In this document: positions 7,429-18,258 of the stretch, piece by piece
How the letters are laid out: each line of letters begins with the position of its first letter
How positions within the stretch are numbered: the stretch's first letter is position 1
NCBI GenBank assembly: GCA_029261405.1
Contig: JAJDBK010000011.1
Location: 1 to 64,000, forward strand
Length of the DNA: 64,000 nucleotides
Source: Nitrospinaceae bacterium
GTDB lineage: Bacteria > Nitrospinota_A > UBA7883 > JAJDBK01
Direction: 5' to 3'
Made by a program: the position numbers and the translations under genes
Notes under the pieces: generated by a model
Database searches by the model: none
Seen by the model: the letters and a program-made list of their open reading frames with translations, nothing else
Told to the model about the DNA's origin: nothing

Positions 7429-8375
7429 TTATATGTTATCAACGACAGAAGCCCAGTCTTCCTCTGTCCAGCGCAACGAGCCAGTGTTAAACAGATAGCC
7501 TGATTCGTGTGAAAACTTTCCTATTCCAGCAAACTTGACATCGCCAGAAACATTGTTGGTAGCTTTTATTTGGTCAAGGTCCCCTTTTTTTCTCGGCCCC
7601 TTCCATGAAGTAATCGTATAGCGCTTCCTACCTTTTTTACCCTCATATGAGAGTTCGGAATAGCCCTCGTTTTTTCTTACAAAACCACATATATAGGCCG
7701 GTATCGGTTTATATGTGGGTAGGTTATGATAAAGGTCATCCGCTTGGTGTTCAGTCAACGAGCCAACCTCAACTCCTTTTTTCAGAACCTTGTCACGAAA
7801 GACACTGATGTGCTTAAAGAATGAAAACAAATGGTCCCTTCCGGCACCACTTTCACAAAAACATGAATATCGGAATGGTCGAATTGCTTACCGGGAATAT
7901 CAAGCCAAACCCCATTCCATTTCCCTGTCTTTATGCCAATCTTCATTCCGGGTGCCCTGAATTGCTCTGCCCCCTTTCTCACTTTATGAATATCTGAAGG
8001 TAAATATTCTGTTAGAGAGCCAACTTCATGTCCGAGTTCCGCGTCAATTTGATGCTTTTCTTTCAGAAACTTTACAAAGGCAATCTCTCCGAGGTACCCG
8101 CGTGTCATGTCAGCCCATGATTGTCCAAGGTCACGTTGTCTGCTACTTCCATAATCTGTGGCAGCAGTAGTGCCAAGTATTTTCAGAGCGTCGATACACA
8201 TTCGGGCGTATTCATCTTCATCAATGAATATACTATTTGGAATAAGTCGTGACTCAACCCAGTCACCGGCATTCATCTCTTCATTAATTTCACCGCCAAC
8301 CTCAGCCTTGCTTAAAATTTTCTCTGCTGTATCAAGGCTTACTGAAAGAAAATCAGAAACTTTCTTATTGAGCAT
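7429..8375 (-). pseudogene. Type II-like restriction endonuclease, split by a frameshift
   Basis: Two overlapping minus-strand frames (8375 to 7782 and about 7830 to 7429) read as one protein of about 315 residues broken near 7830-7838. The upstream frame is sensible to FVKVVPEG. The downstream frame continues DHLFSFFKHISVFRD if one G is restored to the GGG run. The N-terminal part has a PD-(D/E)xK-like arrangement (GYLGEIAFVKFL, then PSDI, then MKIGIKTGKW and DIHVFVKV). It lies two bases below the cytosine methyltransferase, as expected of a restriction partner. The lesion is either true inactivation or a one-base sequence error. The enzyme type and site are inferred. Confidence 0.7.
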
Positions 8376-8377
8376 GG

Positions 8378-9535
8378 CTATCTTGTTTCCTGAATATCCA
8401 CAGTATCTTCAAAAGGCAAGATACCTTGTGATAAAGTTCGCTCATCACACAAAGTAGCTTCTTTCATTGAATCGCTCGGCAAGACATATCCAAAATTCGG
8501 TTGCATGTTTGCGTAGGGAATGTCGGCGAATGTTTTGAGTATTGCGTTAAAAATGGCTTTTGCCCCTGAGACAGGAACTGACATTCCTATCTGTTTTCGC
8601 ACACTCTCTTTACTACCATGAAAAATATAGTCATCAGGAAAAGTTTGTAGCCGAGCGCGTTCCCTGTTCGTTAATGCCCTGTTTTCCTCCCAGTGGTATC
8701 CATGAGTTCCACCACCCCCGCTACCAGTCATAGTGTATGCCGGTTTGTCTGGATCAAGCCGTTTATATATTTGACTGAGCTTAGCCCCTTTTACATTTAG
8801 CTTAAGGTTTTCAGGGAGGTTTGCTGTCCATGCGTTTTGTCCTGGCTTTATATGTTTTAAACGCTCAATAACGGTGGCTGATTGTCTGGTTAGTTCATTG
8901 TTAGGAGCGTTAAAAGGAATTTCAGGACAATGAAGAGCCTCCCTGCAAGTTATCAGTTTTCCGGAGGGTTTAGGAACACGAAATATCTTATTCTCATCTT
9001 GCAAGATTCCGACGATAATAATTCTTTTTCGTATCTGTGGAACACTATATTCATTAAAGTTGTATGAATGAACAGTTAACAAGTATCCGGCGTTTGCAAG
9101 ATCCCTTAAAATTAATTTAAACGTTTTACCATCATTTGCGCTTGCAAGCCCCCCAACATTTTCAGCTAGAAACCATTTTGGCTTAAACGCATGAAGGACT
9201 GTGACACCATAGCTGTAGAGGGGGCCAAAAGTACCGTTTAAACCCCTTGATTCACCTACAATACTAAAATCGTTACAAGGGAAGCCGTAAGCAAAAGCGT
9301 CAATGGCACCAAGCTTCGGGATAACGAGATTCCTCACATCCTCACATATTACAGTTTCAGGAGCGGAAGGAGTAATATTATGACGATAGCTGTTACATGA
9401 GTCCCCGTCGTAATCAGTTGCCCAGACATGGTCAATTCCGAACGTTTCTCCTGACCGTGATTTAATAACTGCTAGTTGAGCTGCCAAACCTAAGCCGCCA
9501 GGACCACAAAACAACTCGCCTAACCTGAATTTCAC
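8378..9535 (-). CDS. DNA (cytosine-5-)-methyltransferase of a restriction-modification system
   Basis: 385 residues with the ordered m5C-methyltransferase motifs: LFCGPGGLGLA (SAM binding, about 8-18), GFPCNDFSIVG with catalytic C87, ENVGGL, QIRKRIIIVG, a target-recognition region, then ALTNRERARLQTFPDDY near 300-320. It methylates cytosine C5 in a site that cannot be read from sequence. It is immediately followed by the broken endonuclease gene. Its AT-rich composition differs from the flanking fab and rseP genes, suggesting horizontal acquisition. Confidence 0.93.
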   Translation of the reverse strand: MKFRLGELFCGPGGLGLAAQLAVIKSRSGETFGIDHVWATDYDGDSCNSYRHNITPSAPETVICEDVRNLVIPKLGAIDAFAYGFPCNDFSIVGESRGLNGTFGPLYSYGVTVLHAFKPKWFLAENVGGLASANDGKTFKLILRDLANAGYLLTVHSYNFNEYSVPQIRKRIIIVGILQDENKIFRVPKPSGKLITCREALHCPEIPFNAPNNELTRQSATVIERLKHIKPGQNAWTANLPENLKLNVKGAKLSQIYKRLDPDKPAYTMTGSGGGGTHGYHWEENRALTNRERARLQTFPDDYIFHGSKESVRKQIGMSVPVSGAKAIFNAILKTFADIPYANMQPNFGYVLPSDSMKEATLCDERTLSQGILPFEDTVDIQETR

Positions 9536-9653: not shown

Positions 9654-10766
9654 TTACCCGTTCATCAGGCGCACAATATCGTTATAGAAAGCGAATACCA
9701 TAAGCGAGAGAAGGAGAACAACACCCACTTGTTGCGCTCGTTCCTGGAATTTTATGTTTACCGGTTTTCCAATAAGAGCTTCGATAGTGAAAAATACAAT
9801 ATGCCCCCCGTCGAGAACCGGGATCGGGAGAAAATTCAGTATGCCAAGGTTGACCGATATCAGCGCCAGGAAGAGTACCAGGTTGACAAAACCGTTCTCG
9901 GCGACCTTGCCGGCCATCTGCATAATGCCTATAGGTCCCGCTATCTGGTCGGAGGAGATATCCCGCATGATGAGCTTGGAGACGGACCATACCGTCATCT
10001 TGGTTATGTTCCATGTCCATGTTACGCCCCGCATAAACGCATCGCCGGGGGAGTAAGTGACGATTACTTCGCGTGGGCTGATGCCTACTTGTCCTATTCT
10101 GATGGTCTTGCCTTCTATGGTTTTGGCTTCACGGGTGGCCGGCAATACCTTTATATTCGCTCGATCTCCAGACTCCCTCAGCACTTCCAGGGAAATCTCC
10201 TTGCCACCATTTTCCCTGATCTTGAGAACGATATCCTCCCACTTCTCCATCTTTTGGCTGTCGATAAAATCGATCCTGTCACCCGCGAGAAGCCCGGCTT
10301 CAGAGGCGGGTGAGTCGTCAAAAACCTTGTCGATAACCCTGGAACCTTCCGGGAGGCCGATCATGGCGGCGCCCATGACAAGAAATATGGCAAGCATGAT
10401 GTTAAACAATGGCCCGGCGGCCACAATAGCCAGCCTTTTGGAGACCGCCTGATTCAGGAAGGATTCCGGGTCGTCCGTGGCGTCCTCCGAGTCGTCGCCG
10501 TAAAACTTGACGTAACCACCAAGGGGTATCCAGGAGAGCATGTAATTGGTATCGCCCCACTGTTTACTGAATATTCGCGGGCCGAATCCGATGGAGAATT
10601 TTTCCACCCTGATGCCGGTCGCCCTGGCAACGATAAAGTGTCCGAATTCGTGGACCAGAATCAGCAGTCCGAGAGCCGCCACAGCCGAAGCTCCGAATGT
10701 GAACCATCCGTATACACGCTCAAAGGAGATTACGTCGAGTACGGAAACAAATGCAATTACGTTCAT
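9654..10766 (-). CDS. rseP: RseP-family site-2 intramembrane zinc metalloprotease
   Basis: 370 residues. The zinc-binding HEFGH is at 39-43 within the first membrane helix. One PDZ domain lies at about 125-195 (SPASEAGLLAGDRI), and the second active-site motif NFLPIPVLDGGH is near 315. In the family this protease cleaves anti-sigma factors and signal-peptide remnants in the inner membrane. It is the last full gene of the envelope run below lolA, rather than next to dxr/cdsA where it is often found. Confidence 0.93.
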   Translation of the reverse strand: MNVIAFVSVLDVISFERVYGWFTFGASAVAALGLLILVHEFGHFIVARATGIRVEKFSIGFGPRIFSKQWGDTNYMLSWIPLGGYVKFYGDDSEDATDDPESFLNQAVSKRLAIVAAGPLFNIMLAIFLVMGAAMIGLPEGSRVIDKVFDDSPASEAGLLAGDRIDFIDSQKMEKWEDIVLKIRENGGKEISLEVLRESGDRANIKVLPATREAKTIEGKTIRIGQVGISPREVIVTYSPGDAFMRGVTWTWNITKMTVWSVSKLIMRDISSDQIAGPIGIMQMAGKVAENGFVNLVLFLALISVNLGILNFLPIPVLDGGHIVFFTIEALIGKPVNIKFQERAQQVGVVLLLSLMVFAFYNDIVRLMNG

Positions 10767-10824: not shown

Positions 10825-11493
10825 TCAGGTCCCGGGAGTTTTACGCACGGTCACCCCTTCGGTCCTTGTAAAAGCGAAAACAGAGTCGTCAAGATCGACG
10901 TTCCGTTCTATATTGTTAAAATCTATACGGTTTTTGTTCCCGATATAATCGACAGTCACCAGACTTAAAATAACATGATCTGAGGCGTTAACGGTAAGAA
11001 GCATCGCCTTGACACCGGCTTGAGGCTCCTTGGGGACCAGTTTTAACCGGACACGGTTCAGGCTTTTATCGCTTTCCGGGACCAGTTTTACATCAAAAAT
11101 TGTGGTCATAAGCTTCTTGCCGGTCAGGAACAGGGCAAAAGCGTTTCGTTCGAGGTACCGGGCCAGTTCATCGAAATAGACAACATTTTCCGAAGGTTCG
11201 TATAACCACAAACGTTTCCCGTCCGCCAGCGTATATTTTCCTGTCGGTTCGTCATAGCTCCACAACATCATGGAGGGTTTTTTTACAAATAGCCGACCAG
11301 TATGAACCGCTGTCTGACCAAAACCTTTCGACTCGAACGACTGGGTAAATCGTGCGGTCATGGTGGTCATGTTCTGAAAAACCCGCTCGATATCCTGAAT
11401 AAGGGGTTCGCTGGATGTTTCACAATAGCCCCTCCCCGGAAGGAGTGTCATGGTTATCAGAAAAGCGCCCGCCAGAAGCGTGAAAAATCTCAT
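10825..11493 (-). CDS. lolA: Outer-membrane lipoprotein carrier protein LolA
   Basis: Periplasmic chaperone that ferries lipoproteins from LolCDE to the outer membrane. 222 residues with a signal peptide (residues 1-25, cleavage after GYC-like small residues). The LolA core includes MTARFTQSFESKGFGQ, GRLFVKKPSMMLWSYDEP and LWLYEPSENVVYFDEL. It overlaps the purN stop by four bases (ATGA), so it is translationally coupled. It sits with rseP and the LpxC fusion in an envelope-biogenesis operon. Confidence 0.93.
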   Translation of the reverse strand: MRFFTLLAGAFLITMTLLPGRGYCETSSEPLIQDIERVFQNMTTMTARFTQSFESKGFGQTAVHTGRLFVKKPSMMLWSYDEPTGKYTLADGKRLWLYEPSENVVYFDELARYLERNAFALFLTGKKLMTTIFDVKLVPESDKSLNRVRLKLVPKEPQAGVKAMLLTVNASDHVILSLVTVDYIGNKNRIDFNNIERNVDLDDSVFAFTRTEGVTVRKTPGT

Positions 11494-12104
11494 GGTTTTG
11501 TTCTCGCCCCCGGAACCTGGACAGCGCCGGTCGCTATGAGTCGCACCGCTTCAGGATAGATGCGATGCTCCTGTTCAAGGATACGCAGGCTTAACGAATC
11601 TGCGGAATCGTCGGCCAGTACCGGAACAGCCGATTGAATTATCACCTTCCCGGTATCGACCCCTTCGTCAACAAAATGAACGGTGCATCCCGATATCTTC
11701 ACCCCGTAATCGAGGGCCTGTTGTTGAGCGTCCAGGCCGGGGAAAGAGGGGAGGAGCGCCGGGTGGATATTGATAACGTTTCCGTCGAAACGATCCAGAA
11801 AAGACTTACCCAGAATTCTCATATATCCGGCGAGACATACAAGGCCGGTCTCCTCCGGTTTAACGGCGTCGGCGAGAGCGTAGTCGTACTCCGCTCGTGA
11901 GCCAAACCTTTTTCGTTCGACAATATGGTGTTCAATCCCGGCTTTTTTCGCCTTTTCGATGGCTTTGGCGTCCCGGTTATCTGTAACGAGCCGAACGATT
12001 CGGAAGGGAGTCTCTTTTTTTTCCTGAGCGTCGATTAACGCCTGAAAATTGCTACCTCTGCCGGAGGCAATTACAACGACGTTCAGTTTTTCCTGATACT
12101 GCAT
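11490..12104 (-). CDS. purN: Phosphoribosylglycinamide formyltransferase
   Basis: Third step of purine synthesis: formyl transfer from 10-formyl-THF to GAR. 204 residues. Substrate-binding GRGSNFQALI lies near the N-terminus, the catalytic Asn and His are in NIHPALLPSFPG, and the Asp is in HFVDEGVDTG. The gene is metabolically out of place in the envelope operon between lpxC and lolA, but the tight spacing (12 bp above, four-base overlap below) shows co-transcription. Confidence 0.96.
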   Translation of the reverse strand: MQYQEKLNVVVIASGRGSNFQALIDAQEKKETPFRIVRLVTDNRDAKAIEKAKKAGIEHHIVERKRFGSRAEYDYALADAVKPEETGLVCLAGYMRILGKSFLDRFDGNVINIHPALLPSFPGLDAQQQALDYGVKISGCTVHFVDEGVDTGKVIIQSAVPVLADDSADSLSLRILEQEHRIYPEAVRLIATGAVQVPGARTKP

Positions 12105-12116
12105 CTGTCCCGGATT

Positions 12117-14216
12117 TTAGCGGGAAGCCACCTTCTGTCTGCCGATGGTTTCGGGGTTGTCTTTCGGCGCCACAAGAGTTTCGTGGATTTTTTTTGTAAG
12201 AGCGATGTTTTGTGTGTGACCGCTTCTTACCGCCGTAAATTTGCCTTTAATCGGGCGACCGAGCAGGTAGAGGTCACCTATCAGGTCAAGAATTTTGTGC
12301 CGGGCAGGTTCGTTCGGAAACCGTAGCGGCGTGTTGACGATTCTTTCATCGTCGATCAGGACCACGTTGGAGAGCTTTCCACCCGCAGCCAATCCGGCTT
12401 CATTTAGGGCCTGAATATCTTTTACGAAACCAAACGTCCTGGCGGGAGCTATCGTCTCCTTATAGTATTCGGGAGTCGCGTGATTATATTGGCACTCCTG
12501 TTTGCCGATCGGTTGCGGGTACTCCAGGAAATAGTGGATGGAAAAACTGTCGCACGGCTCCACCGTAAGGCTGGGTCCGTTTACCGGGTCTCCTACCATG
12601 ATCGGTTTGTCGATGATAATCGGATCGACATAATCGGCCTGCTCCTCTACCCCGGAGTCTTCGATAAGATCACAGAAGTCGAGAGCCGATCCGTCCATGA
12701 TCGGGGCTTCGTCGCCGATTTTGATGAGCAGGTTCGTTATCGAATAGCTATGGAGAGCCGACATTATATGTTCGATGGTCTTTATGGTGACGGCGCCGTC
12801 GGAGAGGGTTGTGGCGTAGTCTGTGGAGTTGACATGCTCCAGACTTGCGCTGATGCGAGCGCCGGTGCTGATATCACCAAAAACTATCCCCGATCCGGGA
12901 GGGAGAGGGGAGAGGATGAGGCCTGTTTTAATCCCGGAATGAAGCCCGTGCCCGCACAACACAACTGAAGTTTTTAAAGTGCGTTGTTTAATGCCGCTTG
13001 TCCCGGAGCCACTCCTGTTGTCGATAAGGGTCAACTGCGTTTTTGAGGCGCCGGTTTTCTCTTTTTTCCTGTAGCCTTTCCTCTTCTCGTCCTTACGCTG
13101 TGTGGGTATACCATCCCTTGTAAGGACCGGACCGGAACACGAGTGTACCGCCCGATCGAGAGTCTCCTTTAGCTCGGTCAGGTTATCGGGCCAATCCATT
13201 TTCGTAAGGGCTTTCATGGCGTCCCGACTCACATAATCGATTCGTTTATTATATTGTTCCGCCATTTCTTCCACGAAATGGTTTACATACTCGGGAATAT
13301 CCTTTCTCCTCTCCCGCAGAGGGGTTATCGGGATCAGGTCAGGTCCAAAAACCTCCAGTAACGATGTCGCTCCGGTTTCCATAAAATCGGGACCAGCTGA
13401 CGCGATGATTCTTACGTCAGCCTCCAGGTTTTCATTGTTCGCAAGATCGGAGCTGTCTCCACGTTTCAGAAGTTCGGTCAGCCTTTCGGCTCTCTTGGTG
13501 TCCAGTTTATCTATACGGTCAAAAAACAGGGAGCCACCATCGGCCAATTCGAACCGTGAAGGTTTATCCCCTTCGCCGCCGCACAGGATGGCGTCGAAAT
13601 TTTTCGAGGTTATCTCGGCGCAGGAAACCTCAATGAACGGGCTGTTGCGCCGTTCTGACATGGAGTGAATCGCCCTGGCGGCAAGTTTTTTACCGAGGCC
13701 ATGTTCACCCGTGATAAGGACAGGTCTGTCGCTGTCGGAGGCTTCAAGAATCAGTCTGCGCGCGCTGGCCGCTGAGCTTGACGAACCGATGAGTCGTCGT
13801 GATATCAGACCTTCCGGTGTCATCGATTCTCTGTTGTTGATTCTGTTCTTTCTGTTCCTGAGAGCCTTGGATACGGTCTTGAGAAGAGAATCGATGGAGA
13901 GCGGTTTTTCTATGAAATCAAAAGCGCCGAACTTGGTAGCTTTGACAGCGGTATCGATGGAGCCGTGGCCGCTCATCATGACAACCTCGGTATCCGGGGC
14001 GACGTTTTTTAAGATCTTGAGAGTCTGAATACCGTCGATTCCGGGAATCCAGATGTCGAGAAGCACCAGGTCGGGGGTTTCGGAATGGATCATTCTCAAC
14101 GCCGACTCACCATCGGATGCGGCCTGCACATTGTACCCCTCGTCTGACAGGATACCGACCAGTGCGGACCTGATATTCTCCTCGTCGTCAACTACGAGGA
14201 TTCTCCCCTTTTTCAT
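12117..14216 (-). CDS. lpxC: NtrX-like response regulator with degenerate AAA+ domain fused to LpxC deacetylase
   Basis: 699 residues in one uninterrupted frame. Residues 1-120 are a receiver domain with phospho-acceptor D54 (LLDIWIPGIDG). Residues 140-360 resemble the sigma-54 activator AAA+ domain. Walker A is kept (GEHGLGKK, 170-177), the GAFTGA loop is absent, and the Walker B glutamate is replaced by Arg (LFFDRI, R234). The DNA-binding domain is missing; instead, after a basic linker, a full UDP-3-O-acyl-GlcNAc deacetylase runs from about 409 (IKQRTLK) to the end. LpxC catalytic residues are present: E482, zinc ligands H483, H640 and D644, and H667. LpxC makes the committed step of lipid A synthesis. 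An ATT codon at 12992 lies exactly at the LpxC start. The upstream kinase is NtrY-like. Confidence 0.93.
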   Translation of the reverse strand: MKKGRILVVDDEENIRSALVGILSDEGYNVQAASDGESALRMIHSETPDLVLLDIWIPGIDGIQTLKILKNVAPDTEVVMMSGHGSIDTAVKATKFGAFDFIEKPLSIDSLLKTVSKALRNRKNRINNRESMTPEGLISRRLIGSSSSAASARRLILEASDSDRPVLITGEHGLGKKLAARAIHSMSERRNSPFIEVSCAEITSKNFDAILCGGEGDKPSRFELADGGSLFFDRIDKLDTKRAERLTELLKRGDSSDLANNENLEADVRIIASAGPDFMETGATSLLEVFGPDLIPITPLRERRKDIPEYVNHFVEEMAEQYNKRIDYVSRDAMKALTKMDWPDNLTELKETLDRAVHSCSGPVLTRDGIPTQRKDEKRKGYRKKEKTGASKTQLTLIDNRSGSGTSGIKQRTLKTSVVLCGHGLHSGIKTGLILSPLPPGSGIVFGDISTGARISASLEHVNSTDYATTLSDGAVTIKTIEHIMSALHSYSITNLLIKIGDEAPIMDGSALDFCDLIEDSGVEEQADYVDPIIIDKPIMVGDPVNGPSLTVEPCDSFSIHYFLEYPQPIGKQECQYNHATPEYYKETIAPARTFGFVKDIQALNEAGLAAGGKLSNVVLIDDERIVNTPLRFPNEPARHKILDLIGDLYLLGRPIKGKFTAVRSGHTQNIALTKKIHETLVAPKDNPETIGRQKVASR

Positions 14217-14300: not shown

Positions 14301-16556
14301 CTATTCCGCAGGCAGTTCGATTGTAAAGACCGTTCCTTTGGGCTGGGCTTTGCCGACCCGTATCTTTCCGCCATGGTCCTCCACTATCCGGCTGACGATG
14401 GCAAGCCCCAGTCCAAAACCTTTCGGTTTGGTGGAGAAATAGGGACGAAACAACTGTCGTTTTACAGATTCGGTCATGCCTTGCCCTGTGTCCGCGACTT
14501 CGATGACGATACTCTTTCCATTCTTCTGTCTGCCGGTGCGTATCGATATCTCCCCCCCACCGTTGATAGCGTCGATAGCGTTTTCGACCAGGTTGATAAA
14601 AACCCTCTTTATCTGTTCCGTATCGATATTCACAAGCTTGATGGACGGATCGAGTTTTGTGGTGAACTTTACTCCGGGCCGGGTGTGCTCGTAGAGCTTT
14701 ACCGTCTCTTCGATTATGGCGTGTAACATCGAAGGCTCCTGCGCCAGGTCGAGCAGTTTCACGTCGGAGAGTCTGGCTTCCGATGGATGGGCGTCAGAGA
14801 GCCTGGCGAGTCTGGAGAACCGTTCCACCAATGCTTTTAACTGGTCAACCTCCTGACTGATCGATACTGTGGCGTTGTTGAATACCTGGGGGAAATCGGG
14901 GGCGCCCTGCTCGAATTTGCGCCTTAATCGCTGTACGTTAAGCTGAATCGGTGTAAGCGGGTTTTTTATCTCGTGGGCTACGACCCTCGACATTTCACGC
15001 CACGCAAGCCCTCTCTGGGCCGCCAGTATCTCGGTCAGATCGTCAAAAACCAGGACCGCGCCCAGATAGTTGTTCTCCTGATCGCGCAGGACCGATACCG
15101 ACACCCTGAAAGTCCGGCGCACATCGTTGAGCGGAATCTCCAGCTCCCTCGTGATGCTGTCGCCACCCATCAGGTCCATTTCCCGCATCATCTGGCGGAT
15201 AGGGGAGGAGATGGGGGGAGCGAATACTTTCTTGTAGTTGGCGCCTTTGGCGCTCCGGGCCTCCACTCCGAGCATGGTAGCGGCCGCCCCGTTGATGGTG
15301 TTGACGGCGCCCCCCTTGTCGATGGAGATAACACCTCCGGCGGCGGTATCGAGCACCGCTTCCATATATTGTCCCCGGTGGTAGAGCTGAACGTTCGATT
15401 CGCTCAGGTTGATGTTCGCTTTCTCCAGCTTTTCACTAGATACCTTAAGGTCATGGGTCATCCTGTTGAACGCCACTACCAACTGACCGACCTCATCGTT
15501 CTGGATCGGCACGTCTATCACCACGTCGAGCCTTCCGGCCGCCACGGCTTCGGTGGCGTTTAAGATCCTTTTTAGCGGAACAGTTATACCCTTGGCCAGG
15601 TAAAACGCAATCCATATGGCGGAGAAAATAATGACGAGGGCCACCAGCGCCAACGTCACCTGATATGAGGCTTTGATGATCTCCTTTTTGATGGTCAACT
15701 GGTTGAAACTTTCGTAAGCGCGACCGATGGAGGTGACCTTGTCTACATACTTTCGTGACACCTCGTTTGCCACCACGACAACCCCTTTTAACTGATCGTC
15801 ACCGCCGTCACGCAAAGAGGCCACCGATACGGCCATGTTGACACCGGCATGGTCGTCCACACTCGTAACAACCTCGCCCAAAGCGACCTTGGCCATAACA
15901 TCGTTTCGTTCCGAGAGTTTGAACGTGAGGGCGCCATCTTTTCCACCGGCCATAACCACAAGTTCATATTCGGCGTTGTAGACCTGGATCAGATCGACAC
16001 TATACTCTTTTTGTTTCTGCTTAACGAGACGGTCCAGGCTCGGTCTGGCGCCATTTCCAATAAGGTTCCGCTGTTTTATGAGGGAGGAGAGGTATATGGC
16101 GTTTGACTCGACCCGTTTTTTCGATTCCTTATAAAGACCTTCGGCCACCTCCAACGATTCGTGCAACGTTCGTTCGATCCGTTTGTTCAGCCATTTATCG
16201 ACGGTGTCGGAAATAAGCTCCGTGGCTACAGCGAACATCATGGAGGCCGGAATCAGGGTCATGGCCAGAAATGCGACGACGAGTCTTGTCTGGAACCGCG
16301 CTCCGGTGACCTGACCCCGCCGCTCGAAATATAGTTTTACGAGGTTGCGTAGCACCAGCAAAACCATGACAACGAGCAGGAGGACGTTCAGGTTAAGAAC
16401 CAGGGCGACGGCTATGTCGTTGGAAATAGGAGCGTCCAGGCTCGAATCCTGCAAAACGATCGACCCGACCGTCATCAGAATAAAGAGGAGCGTAAGAGCG
16501 ATTACGAGATTACGGGTATTTCTTTTTCGACGAACCAGTAGCTCGTTCAACTCCAA
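14301..16556 (-). CDS. ntrY: NtrY-type membrane sensor histidine kinase
   Basis: 751 residues. Three membrane helices lie in the first 110 residues (about 16-34, 47-70 and 87-108). An extracytoplasmic sensor domain covers about 110-290, with a fourth helix at 300-320. It continues with HAMP (320-372), PAS (about 395-505), HisKA with H528 in VVAHEIKNPLTPIQ, and HATPase with NLVENAIDAI, DTGQGM and GFGLGLAIVSRIVEDHGG. This is the NtrY architecture. The cognate regulator is the receiver-AAA-LpxC fusion 84 bp downstream, so the likely phosphotransfer target is a lipid A enzyme fusion, not a standard transcription factor. Confidence 0.93.
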   Translation of the reverse strand: MELNELLVRRKRNTRNLVIALTLLFILMTVGSIVLQDSSLDAPISNDIAVALVLNLNVLLLVVMVLLVLRNLVKLYFERRGQVTGARFQTRLVVAFLAMTLIPASMMFAVATELISDTVDKWLNKRIERTLHESLEVAEGLYKESKKRVESNAIYLSSLIKQRNLIGNGARPSLDRLVKQKQKEYSVDLIQVYNAEYELVVMAGGKDGALTFKLSERNDVMAKVALGEVVTSVDDHAGVNMAVSVASLRDGGDDQLKGVVVVANEVSRKYVDKVTSIGRAYESFNQLTIKKEIIKASYQVTLALVALVIIFSAIWIAFYLAKGITVPLKRILNATEAVAAGRLDVVIDVPIQNDEVGQLVVAFNRMTHDLKVSSEKLEKANINLSESNVQLYHRGQYMEAVLDTAAGGVISIDKGGAVNTINGAAATMLGVEARSAKGANYKKVFAPPISSPIRQMMREMDLMGGDSITRELEIPLNDVRRTFRVSVSVLRDQENNYLGAVLVFDDLTEILAAQRGLAWREMSRVVAHEIKNPLTPIQLNVQRLRRKFEQGAPDFPQVFNNATVSISQEVDQLKALVERFSRLARLSDAHPSEARLSDVKLLDLAQEPSMLHAIIEETVKLYEHTRPGVKFTTKLDPSIKLVNIDTEQIKRVFINLVENAIDAINGGGEISIRTGRQKNGKSIVIEVADTGQGMTESVKRQLFRPYFSTKPKGFGLGLAIVSRIVEDHGGKIRVGKAQPKGTVFTIELPAE

Positions 16557-16651: not shown

Positions 16652-17443
16652 TCAGTTGTTCTGACTGTTCGCAGGTTTCGATTCGCTCTTTGTTCCCGTA
16701 TCAGGAGGGGGGCCGTTGAGCATGAACGGGGCTGAATTGGCCCAGTCTGTGTCGAAATCCCATAGGGCGAGAAAAAACAGGATGTAGTTAAATGGCGGAA
16801 TCAGCTTGATCGATTTCATCTCGCATCGGACCCTTACATAATAAACACCATCCAGGGGCAATCCCTCTTCGACTCCAAGATCGATACTCTCCAGATGTGT
16901 CATCCAGTTTCTCAGCACATTTATGTCGTCTATAACGTCGTAATCATCATCCCTCTTCCCGGAAGAGGCCGGGGTCGCAGGATCGTTATTCGGGGGGGTA
17001 TCTTTTTCAGCGTTGGTCGGCTCGCTTTTGTCTTCTTTTTCCGGCTTCGCTTCACCTTTTTGGGCGATCCTCAGCAGTTCGGCTGTGAAATCGATATCAC
17101 CATCGTCCTCGGCTCGTTTCTCCCAGACAAGATACTGTTTTTTGATGGTGTCGTATTTGACCATCCGTTTTATGGCAAGCTCTCTTTCGGTCTTGTTCCA
17201 GATGACGGAGCGGTTTCTTATAAGTTTTAAAAAGTAGGTGAAAGTAACCGGCGCTCCCGATTCGAGAGCTTCCAGGATCTCTTCGGAAAAAGCCCCTTCG
17301 ATTTTGGAGGAGACGAGGATCTGCGATATCGAGCCTTTTTCACGAACGACATCGAGGACATAAGCGTCATCGGCGAAGACGGTACCCGGATTAAGGGTGG
17401 TCAGGGATAAAAAGAGAGCCGGGAAAAAGAGAGCCGCTTTCAA
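16652..17443 (-). CDS. DUF4390-like secreted protein upstream of ntrY
   Basis: 263 residues. A signal peptide covers residues 1-24 (LFFPALFLSLTTLNPGTVFA). The core has VLVSSKIEGAFSEEILEALESGAPVTFTYFLKLIR-like family features: a ligand of beta strands with a conserved G-x-P-V-x-F segment. An acidic, Pro/Asp-rich insert follows (about 130-165), then a second conserved part (DGVYYVRVRCEMKSIKLIPP). DUF4390 proteins commonly precede NtrY kinases and may act as a periplasmic partner; their function is not established. Probably first gene of the envelope operon. Confidence 0.7.
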   Translation of the reverse strand: MKAALFFPALFLSLTTLNPGTVFADDAYVLDVVREKGSISQILVSSKIEGAFSEEILEALESGAPVTFTYFLKLIRNRSVIWNKTERELAIKRMVKYDTIKKQYLVWEKRAEDDGDIDFTAELLRIAQKGEAKPEKEDKSEPTNAEKDTPPNNDPATPASSGKRDDDYDVIDDINVLRNWMTHLESIDLGVEEGLPLDGVYYVRVRCEMKSIKLIPPFNYILFFLALWDFDTDWANSAPFMLNGPPPDTGTKSESKPANSQNN

Positions 17444-17622: not shown

Positions 17623-18258
17623 TTATTTACATGCGGGGCAGTTGACAAGGGTTATCTCCCTTCCTTTGTTATCCTGGATCGGTCGATTGTTCCCTCCGAA
17701 GATTTCCAGGAGCTTGTCTACAGACGATTCTGATACGGTTTGCACTTCGGTCATAACGTTCCAGCTCACACCTTCAGTGCGCGGCGGGGTGGTGAGTGAA
17801 CCTGCGAAATGGTAATAAGAACGGACCGGGGGCAATAAAAATGTTGCGTCCACCATCACACCCTCGACTATACGCTCCTCTCCTATATTGTCCGGGACAT
17901 TCTCGAATACAGGGTTTACAACCCTATTATGACCACCGCTCCGGAAGTGCAACCCGATTACAACCAAATTGTCATTCGCGTTGGAGTGGACGAGGTGCGC
18001 TTCCATGGCAAAAGAGAGACCATCGACGGTATTCTCCGAAGGGGAGTGGAAGTGGAACTGTTCAAGTTCAAACCTGGCGCCATCAATTGTAATATAACTG
18101 CCGGGATCGTAGTTGGCCTGAATTGTGTAGCCGTTGTTTATGATTTTCAGTTTTGACGGTTTGTAGAAAAACTGAAAATCGCAGGTTCCCGTTGTGTAAG
18201 GTCCGGTGATATTGATCGGCGCCTGAATGGATGTTTTTCCGCAACTAGTTGATATCAT
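17623..18258 (-). CDS. Alpha-type carbonic anhydrase, N-terminally truncated
   Basis: 211 residues. The three zinc ligands are present: both His of QFHFHSPSE and the His of EAHLVH. The substrate-loop Thr lies in SLTTPPR. The frame starts almost directly at the Cys-Gly...PINI segment. The signal peptide and the roughly 30 residues that normally precede it are missing, and the frame is closed upstream before any other start. Two further departures: the proton-shuttle His (family NNGH) is Tyr in NNGYTIQ, and the Cys of the usual TTPPC disulfide is Arg. Such enzymes are normally periplasmic; this one would be cytosolic or is a decaying gene. Confidence 0.75.
   Translation of the reverse strand: MISTSCGKTSIQAPINITGPYTTGTCDFQFFYKPSKLKIINNGYTIQANYDPGSYITIDGARFELEQFHFHSPSENTVDGLSFAMEAHLVHSNANDNLVVIGLHFRSGGHNRVVNPVFENVPDNIGEERIVEGVMVDATFLLPPVRSYYHFAGSLTTPPRTEGVSWNVMTEVQTVSESSVDKLLEIFGGNNRPIQDNKGREITLVNCPACK

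Follow-up and report, generated by a model that had tools for sequence, protein, structure and literature searches.

A response regulator fused to LpxC, a candidate for direct two-component control of lipid A synthesis in several bacterial phyla

The window (the whole 64,000-nucleotide stretch of Nitrospinaceae DNA analysed here) carries on its minus strand a gene that joins an NtrX-like receiver, a degenerate AAA+ region and a complete LpxC deacetylase in one open frame (Table 1). An initial annotation had described this frame without giving its strand, and the residues it named in the receiver, at R234 and in the LpxC catalytic centre were all found at the positions assigned to them. The gene order DUF4390-ntrY-fusion-purN-lolA-rseP is common to the window and its same-order relatives, with ntrY directly upstream of the fusion, as for a regulator encoded with NtrY, and much of this order is seen again in several other phyla. 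Beside the ntrY locus lies a carbonic anhydrase of the alpha (eukaryotic) type (PF00194). Elsewhere in the window, a C5-cytosine DNA methylase (PF00145) is followed by two ORFs that overlap each other in different frames, neither with a Pfam match, which are perhaps a frameshifted restriction enzyme. A type VI secretion-like locus, recognized by eye from ORF translations only, encodes TssM-, TssL-, TssK-, ClpV-, TssG/TssF-, TssC-, TssA- and VgrG-like proteins, among which lie two pentapeptide-repeat proteins.

Table 1. Positions of the fusion gene, its domains and other features within the window.
Feature	Position	Strand	Evidence or remark
Receiver-(AAA+)-LpxC fusion gene	12117-14216	-	ATG start, 699 aa; sole LpxC detected in the genome
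Receiver domain (aa 6-115), NtrX-like, phospho-acceptor D54	13872-14201	-	Pfam (Response_reg, whole-protein E 4e-32), NCBIfam
Degenerate AAA+ and lid (aa 142-381); Walker A present, R234, no GAFTGA, no HTH	13074-13793	-	Pfam: Sigma54_activat, aa 142-279, 4.5e-23, profile positions 1-146 of 168; AAA_lid_14, aa 301-381
Disordered linker (aa 375-405)	13002-13094	-	AlphaFold2 pLDDT < 50
Complete LpxC deacetylase domain (aa 411-678)	12183-12986	-	Pfam (2.7e-83; 280 bits, cut-off 27), NCBIfam, Foldseek
NtrY sensor kinase (NtrY_N, HAMP, PAS, HisKA, HATPase); H-box HEIKNP, His 528	14301-16556	-	Probable cognate kinase
DUF4390 protein	16652-17443	-	Conserved neighbour upstream of ntrY
purN	11490-12104	-	Conserved downstream neighbour
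lolA (outer-membrane lipoprotein chaperone)	10825-11493	-	Conserved downstream neighbour
rseP site-2 protease	9654-10766	-	Conserved downstream neighbour
Alpha-type carbonic anhydrase	17623-18258	-	PF00194
C5-cytosine DNA methylase	8378-9535	-	PF00145
Two overlapping ORFs after the methylase	7782-8375, 7429-7830	-	
Type VI secretion-like locus	33481-58949	-	

The initial annotation had named a stop or frameshift between the AAA+ and LpxC parts as the observation that would count against a fusion protein. The frame is open, and the fusion is uninterrupted in about 40 independent assemblies; a missed stop or a chimeric contig is therefore very unlikely, and an assembly artefact was dismissed as an explanation. 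The possibility that LpxC is translated on its own from a start within the gene was likewise rejected: there is no methionine near the junction, and the sole alternative in-frame start in codons 370-415 is a TTG at codon 395, upstream of which no sequence resembling a ribosome-binding site was found. The aligned linkers of the family also showed no conserved start position.

The LpxC part passes the cut-off of the NCBIfam LpxC equivalog (TIGR00325; 245 versus 187 bits) and matches the Aquifex LpxC in fold (Foldseek TM, target, 0.94). Its zinc ligands H483, H640 and D644 correspond to E. coli H79, H238 and D242, and E482, T594, K641 and H667 to the catalytic E78, T191, K239 and H265. The fusion is the sole LpxC found in the source genome (G000; 3.27 Mb, 99.48% complete). 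A second, ordinary LpxC was found neither there nor in the other fused genomes, each of which had one LpxC match (partial in G011). LpxK is encoded in the same genome, in which no other LpxC was found; this lends indirect support to the putative deacetylase activity of the fusion and makes it probable that the fusion is the essential enzyme of lipid A synthesis. A Pfam match to FabA/FabZ was sought in the window fusion, and none was found. Between aa 417 and 629 of the window fusion, 16 LpxC positions (e.g. G432, Y491, K499, C515, E553, P567 and L620) are invariant or almost so throughout the fused clade, whereas unfused LpxC has other residues there; these are candidates for contact with the receiver or for a difference in substrate.

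The receiver has the residues expected of a response regulator (PF00072), namely an acidic pair (D10, D11), a phospho-acceptor aspartate (D54), a Thr/Ser (S82) and a lysine (K104), all at canonical positions and nearly invariant across the family. The D54 equivalent and the KP motif are kept in fused members despite deletion of the AAA+ region in several lineages, and the acidic pair is weakened in one short member (L150; DS instead of DD). NtrX was the best NCBIfam model for the window protein (NF051870; 269.9 bits over aa 6-364), and the receiver and AAA+ parts match NtrX best by fold too. The protein misses the NtrX equivalog cut-off (600 bits) and has no C-terminal Fis-type HTH. No separate NtrX was found in the source genome at that cut-off, other regulators scoring at most 403 bits; at least 17 of the proteins encoded there are ordinary sigma-54 activators.

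The H-box of the window's NtrY is intact. Away from the fusion, ntrY was located in the sister family (f6) and in two further genomes (G028, G031), and the several kilobases of its surroundings that were read contain no NtrX-like regulator. Because NtrY either adjoins the fusion or lies elsewhere without a neighbouring NtrX, the receiver of the fusion is its most economical partner. The earlier proposal that NtrY is the likely kinase is thus supported by its adjacency in most lineages and by its solitary position in others, and the sequences suggest that NtrY phosphorylates the fusion receiver. A kinase with NtrY_N was present in 20 of the 23 fused genomes versus 4 of the 33 unfused outgroups; common ancestry inflates the P value of this contrast. 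Two of the fused genomes in which NtrY_N went undetected, G015 and G020, are 92-94% complete.

Walker A of the window protein, kept as previously described, reads GEHGLGK (K176), and Walker B reads LFFDR, with R234 where glutamate is expected. Neither the Walker B glutamate nor the GAFTGA loop of a sigma-54 activator (bEBP) is present. None of the fused members has a GAFTGA, including L136, which has an intact-looking Walker B and is the only member in which the Walker B DE was seen. Caulobacter NtrX is also without GAFTGA (PMC10274813). The loop had been described as lost: its absence stands, but not as a product of decay after the fusion, since an absence common to all members and to Caulobacter NtrX was probably inherited. 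Control of LpxC by nucleotide binding through Walker A, which the initial annotation had also envisaged, fared less well. The Walker A lysine is missing in L019 and L021, both of the window's order, and the AAA+ region is absent from several receiver-LpxC lineages, so that nucleotide sensing is ruled out as a universal mechanism and is unlikely as the core one. Given its confident AlphaFold2 fold and a dN/dS below 1, the AAA+ region of the window lineage likely keeps a structural role.

Loss of the DNA-binding domain was confirmed for the window protein and its order. No HTH was found, by Pfam or in the sequence, in the window protein, its whole class or the short forms without AAA+. About 10 members of other lineages carry, between the AAA+ lid and LpxC, a stretch that resembles an HTH; Pfam called HTH_8 in L133, L134 and L063 (slightly below the curated cut-off in L063) and not in L136 or L027. 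These members, three of them with HTH_8 among those scanned, are what would be expected if the protein were still a transcription factor to which LpxC is merely attached. With the HTH absent from the window protein, its class and the short forms, and the AAA+ region decaying, such a dual function would be ancestral at most, or limited to the HTH-bearing lineages, and we consider it most improbable.

A profile built from the LpxC part of the fusions was searched against 385 genomes, 324 of which had some LpxC. There were 40 full matches (351-487 bits), and the next score was 261 bits; the fused type is thus present in 40 of the 324 sampled LpxC-bearing genomes. A long fused frame was found in every same-order and same-class genome with a detectable LpxC, those relatives with no LpxC match being 76-86% complete genomes, and the window's phylum is small as sampled. 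Outside this phylum, 21 matches represent 14 family-level groups. Phylum-restricted searches placed G117, G065 and G252 in three separate phyla, and since there are matches outside these and the window's phylum, at least five phyla have a fused LpxC. All four genomes of G065's phylum have the fused type. In the small phylum of G252, fused LpxC occurs in one family and ordinary LpxC in another, a possible sign of horizontal transfer or replacement. A receiver was found in every fused member with a readable complete N-terminus (L064 is truncated by a contig end, and G385, G387 and G392 were assessed by score and frame length only).

In a maximum-likelihood tree, the 40 fused LpxC domains form one clade (100/100) that excludes all 21 unfused sequences and has a stem of 1.37 changes per site. 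The fused LpxC therefore has a single origin, and the architecture, for which the initial annotation had advised a domain search and taxonomic mapping, is not a singleton but that of an old cross-phylum family. Three architectures occur: receiver-AAA+-HTH-LpxC (e.g. L133, L134, L136, L063), receiver-AAA+-LpxC (the window, its class, L135, L142) and receiver-LpxC without AAA+ (L020, L143-L147, L149, L150). The short form requires up to three label changes on the tree and, as far as the starred branches alone go, may have arisen once. These architectures, together with an N-terminal part that best matches NtrX, make a complete ntrX joined to lpxC the likely ancestor. The order of decay suggested by architecture, with the root within the clade not fixed, runs from NtrX (receiver-AAA+-HTH)-LpxC through loss of the HTH to deletion of the AAA+ region.

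The domains of the fusion differ in constraint. Mean pairwise identity among the 20 nearest long forms was 62% for the receiver, 31% for AAA+, 11% for the linker and 60% for LpxC (53%, 30%, 13% and 54% in a wider set). In close pairs (Nei-Gojobori), dN/dS was 0.03-0.17 for the receiver, 0.04-0.15 for LpxC, 0.10-0.31 for AAA+ in long forms and 0.2 to >1 for the linker; many dS values are high, and it is the contrast between domains that is reliable. By both identity and dN/dS the receiver is constrained about as strictly as the LpxC enzyme; it is retained and under purifying selection. These observations bear on whether neighbouring ntrX and lpxC genes fused by historical accident, leaving the receiver as a passive leader. 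Fusion of neighbours is a simple origin with which the operon ntrY-(ntrX-lpxC)-purN-lolA-rseP is compatible, but selection acts on the receiver as it would on an essential enzyme, whereas the domains that once accompanied it drift or disappear; the phospho-site is conserved, and the receiver is never lost in readable members. A passive leader therefore seems very unlikely.

Taken as one regulated enzyme, a reading of receiver and LpxC supported by the conserved phospho-site and the sole LpxC, the fusion would be a response regulator with LpxC as its output, through which NtrY sets lipid A synthesis post-translationally; we regard this as reasonably probable. The membrane sensor kinase would phosphorylate D54, a change in the receiver, probably at its dimerisation face, would alter the lipid A precursor output of the tethered LpxC, and envelope signals would thereby reach the enzyme directly. 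That phosphorylation changes LpxC output, at the post-translational level, we infer from the sequences; that it lowers output is a guess based on how NtrYX acts in Rhodobacter and Caulobacter. AlphaFold2 gave a pTM of 0.48 for the full-length protein and 0.68 for a 430-aa short form, with a flexible linker and no fixed packing of the receiver on LpxC. A rigid allosteric contact is thus not predicted for the monomer, and receiver-driven dimerisation, localisation or stability remain as routes.

Stability could be governed through the amount of LpxC, phosphorylation exposing the protein to FtsH/LapB or Lon or hiding it from them, as with other targets of receiver-governed proteolysis. LpxC is classically regulated by proteolysis, and the source genome encodes a LapB-like protein (LapA_dom, TPR, Zn_ribbon_LapB), so that proteolytic control may coexist with the fusion. 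However, LapB-like proteins also occur in genomes with unfused LpxC, which leaves the fusion unexplained, and no degron is visible in the sequence; we think control of amount unlikely. That the fusion arose because LapB was lost is ruled out by the LapB-like protein. This protein (L161:609-1904, contig 20 of the source genome) carries a LapB rubredoxin domain at its C terminus, together with LapA_dom and TPRs, and resembles a LapA-LapB composite.

Localisation could instead be the point of the receiver, as a tether that binds membrane-bound NtrY and thereby brings LpxC to the inner membrane or releases it from there. NtrY is predicted to be membrane-bound, the linker is long and flexible, the receiver is retained where everything between it and LpxC is lost, and there is precedent in Neisseria, where membrane localisation of LpxC is Ght-dependent (PMC12444477). 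Yet in several lineages NtrY is not encoded next to the fusion, receivers usually dock on kinases only transiently, and the conserved phosphorylation residues would be unneeded for pure docking, which makes a tether quite unlikely. We hold with moderate confidence to a built-in receiver that regulates LpxC post-translationally across several phyla, NtrY acting directly with no transcription step, in a protein derived by stepwise conversion of a transcription factor. A one-time fusion of a complete ntrX to lpxC would have been followed, in descendants including the window's order, by loss of the DNA-binding part and demotion of AAA+ to a spacer or scaffold, which some have deleted.

LpxC, an antibiotic target, catalyses the committed step of lipid A synthesis and is the pathway's main point of control. 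A membrane sensor could here adjust lipid A synthesis by acting on LpxC itself, not via gene expression. If so, this would be, to the best of our knowledge, the first two-component system to control lipid A synthesis directly at its enzyme, and a complete transcription factor would have become the regulatory domain of an enzyme whose expression its relatives control. The family illustrates that a transcription factor can be stripped to its regulatory domain, with intermediate stages surviving in living lineages. The natural 430-aa receiver-LpxC forms are small enough for the question to be tested with one purified protein.

The two partners are linked transcriptionally elsewhere. NtrYX lowers lpxC transcription in the alphaproteobacteria Rhodobacter and Caulobacter (PMC12444477); without NtrYX, the R. 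sphaeroides lpxC transcript rises about ninefold and LPS about twofold, and no NtrX site lies upstream of lpxC in this species (PMC7240162). The fusion joins an NtrX-like regulator and LpxC in one chain, and the circuit here appears hard-wired. A 2025 review lists FtsH/LapB, Lon, Ght and the transcriptional NtrYX or ChvGI as lipid A regulators, considers LpxC regulation beyond enterobacteria a largely open question, and does not mention a receiver or fusion in its text (PMC12444477). We found no published receiver-LpxC fusion among open-licence PMC papers, and as far as we found a response regulator with this output enzyme has not previously been described. FtsH/LapB and Ght (PMC12444477) also control LpxC post-translationally, but as separate proteins, none of them a two-component receiver in the same chain.

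With NtrX (Brucella structures 5M7N, 5M7O and 5M7P) the window protein shares the receiver and AAA+ region, the NtrY partner and, as in Caulobacter NtrX, the absence of GAFTGA; it differs in having no DNA-binding domain, a degenerate AAA+, a C-terminal LpxC and a score of 270 versus 600 bits. LpxC-FabZ (PRK13188) is also a natural LpxC fusion, but its partner is a second enzyme placed C-terminal of LpxC, whereas here it is an N-terminal signalling domain. Other LpxC proteins have the same fold and catalytic residues, to which the fusion adds the N-terminal receiver and AAA+ and a long-stemmed clade of its own. Response regulators with enzymatic output include CheB and the GGDEF and EAL proteins. 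They likewise hold receiver and enzyme in one chain, but their enzymes synthesise or degrade signals or modify signalling proteins, whereas the enzyme here belongs to essential outer-membrane biosynthesis.
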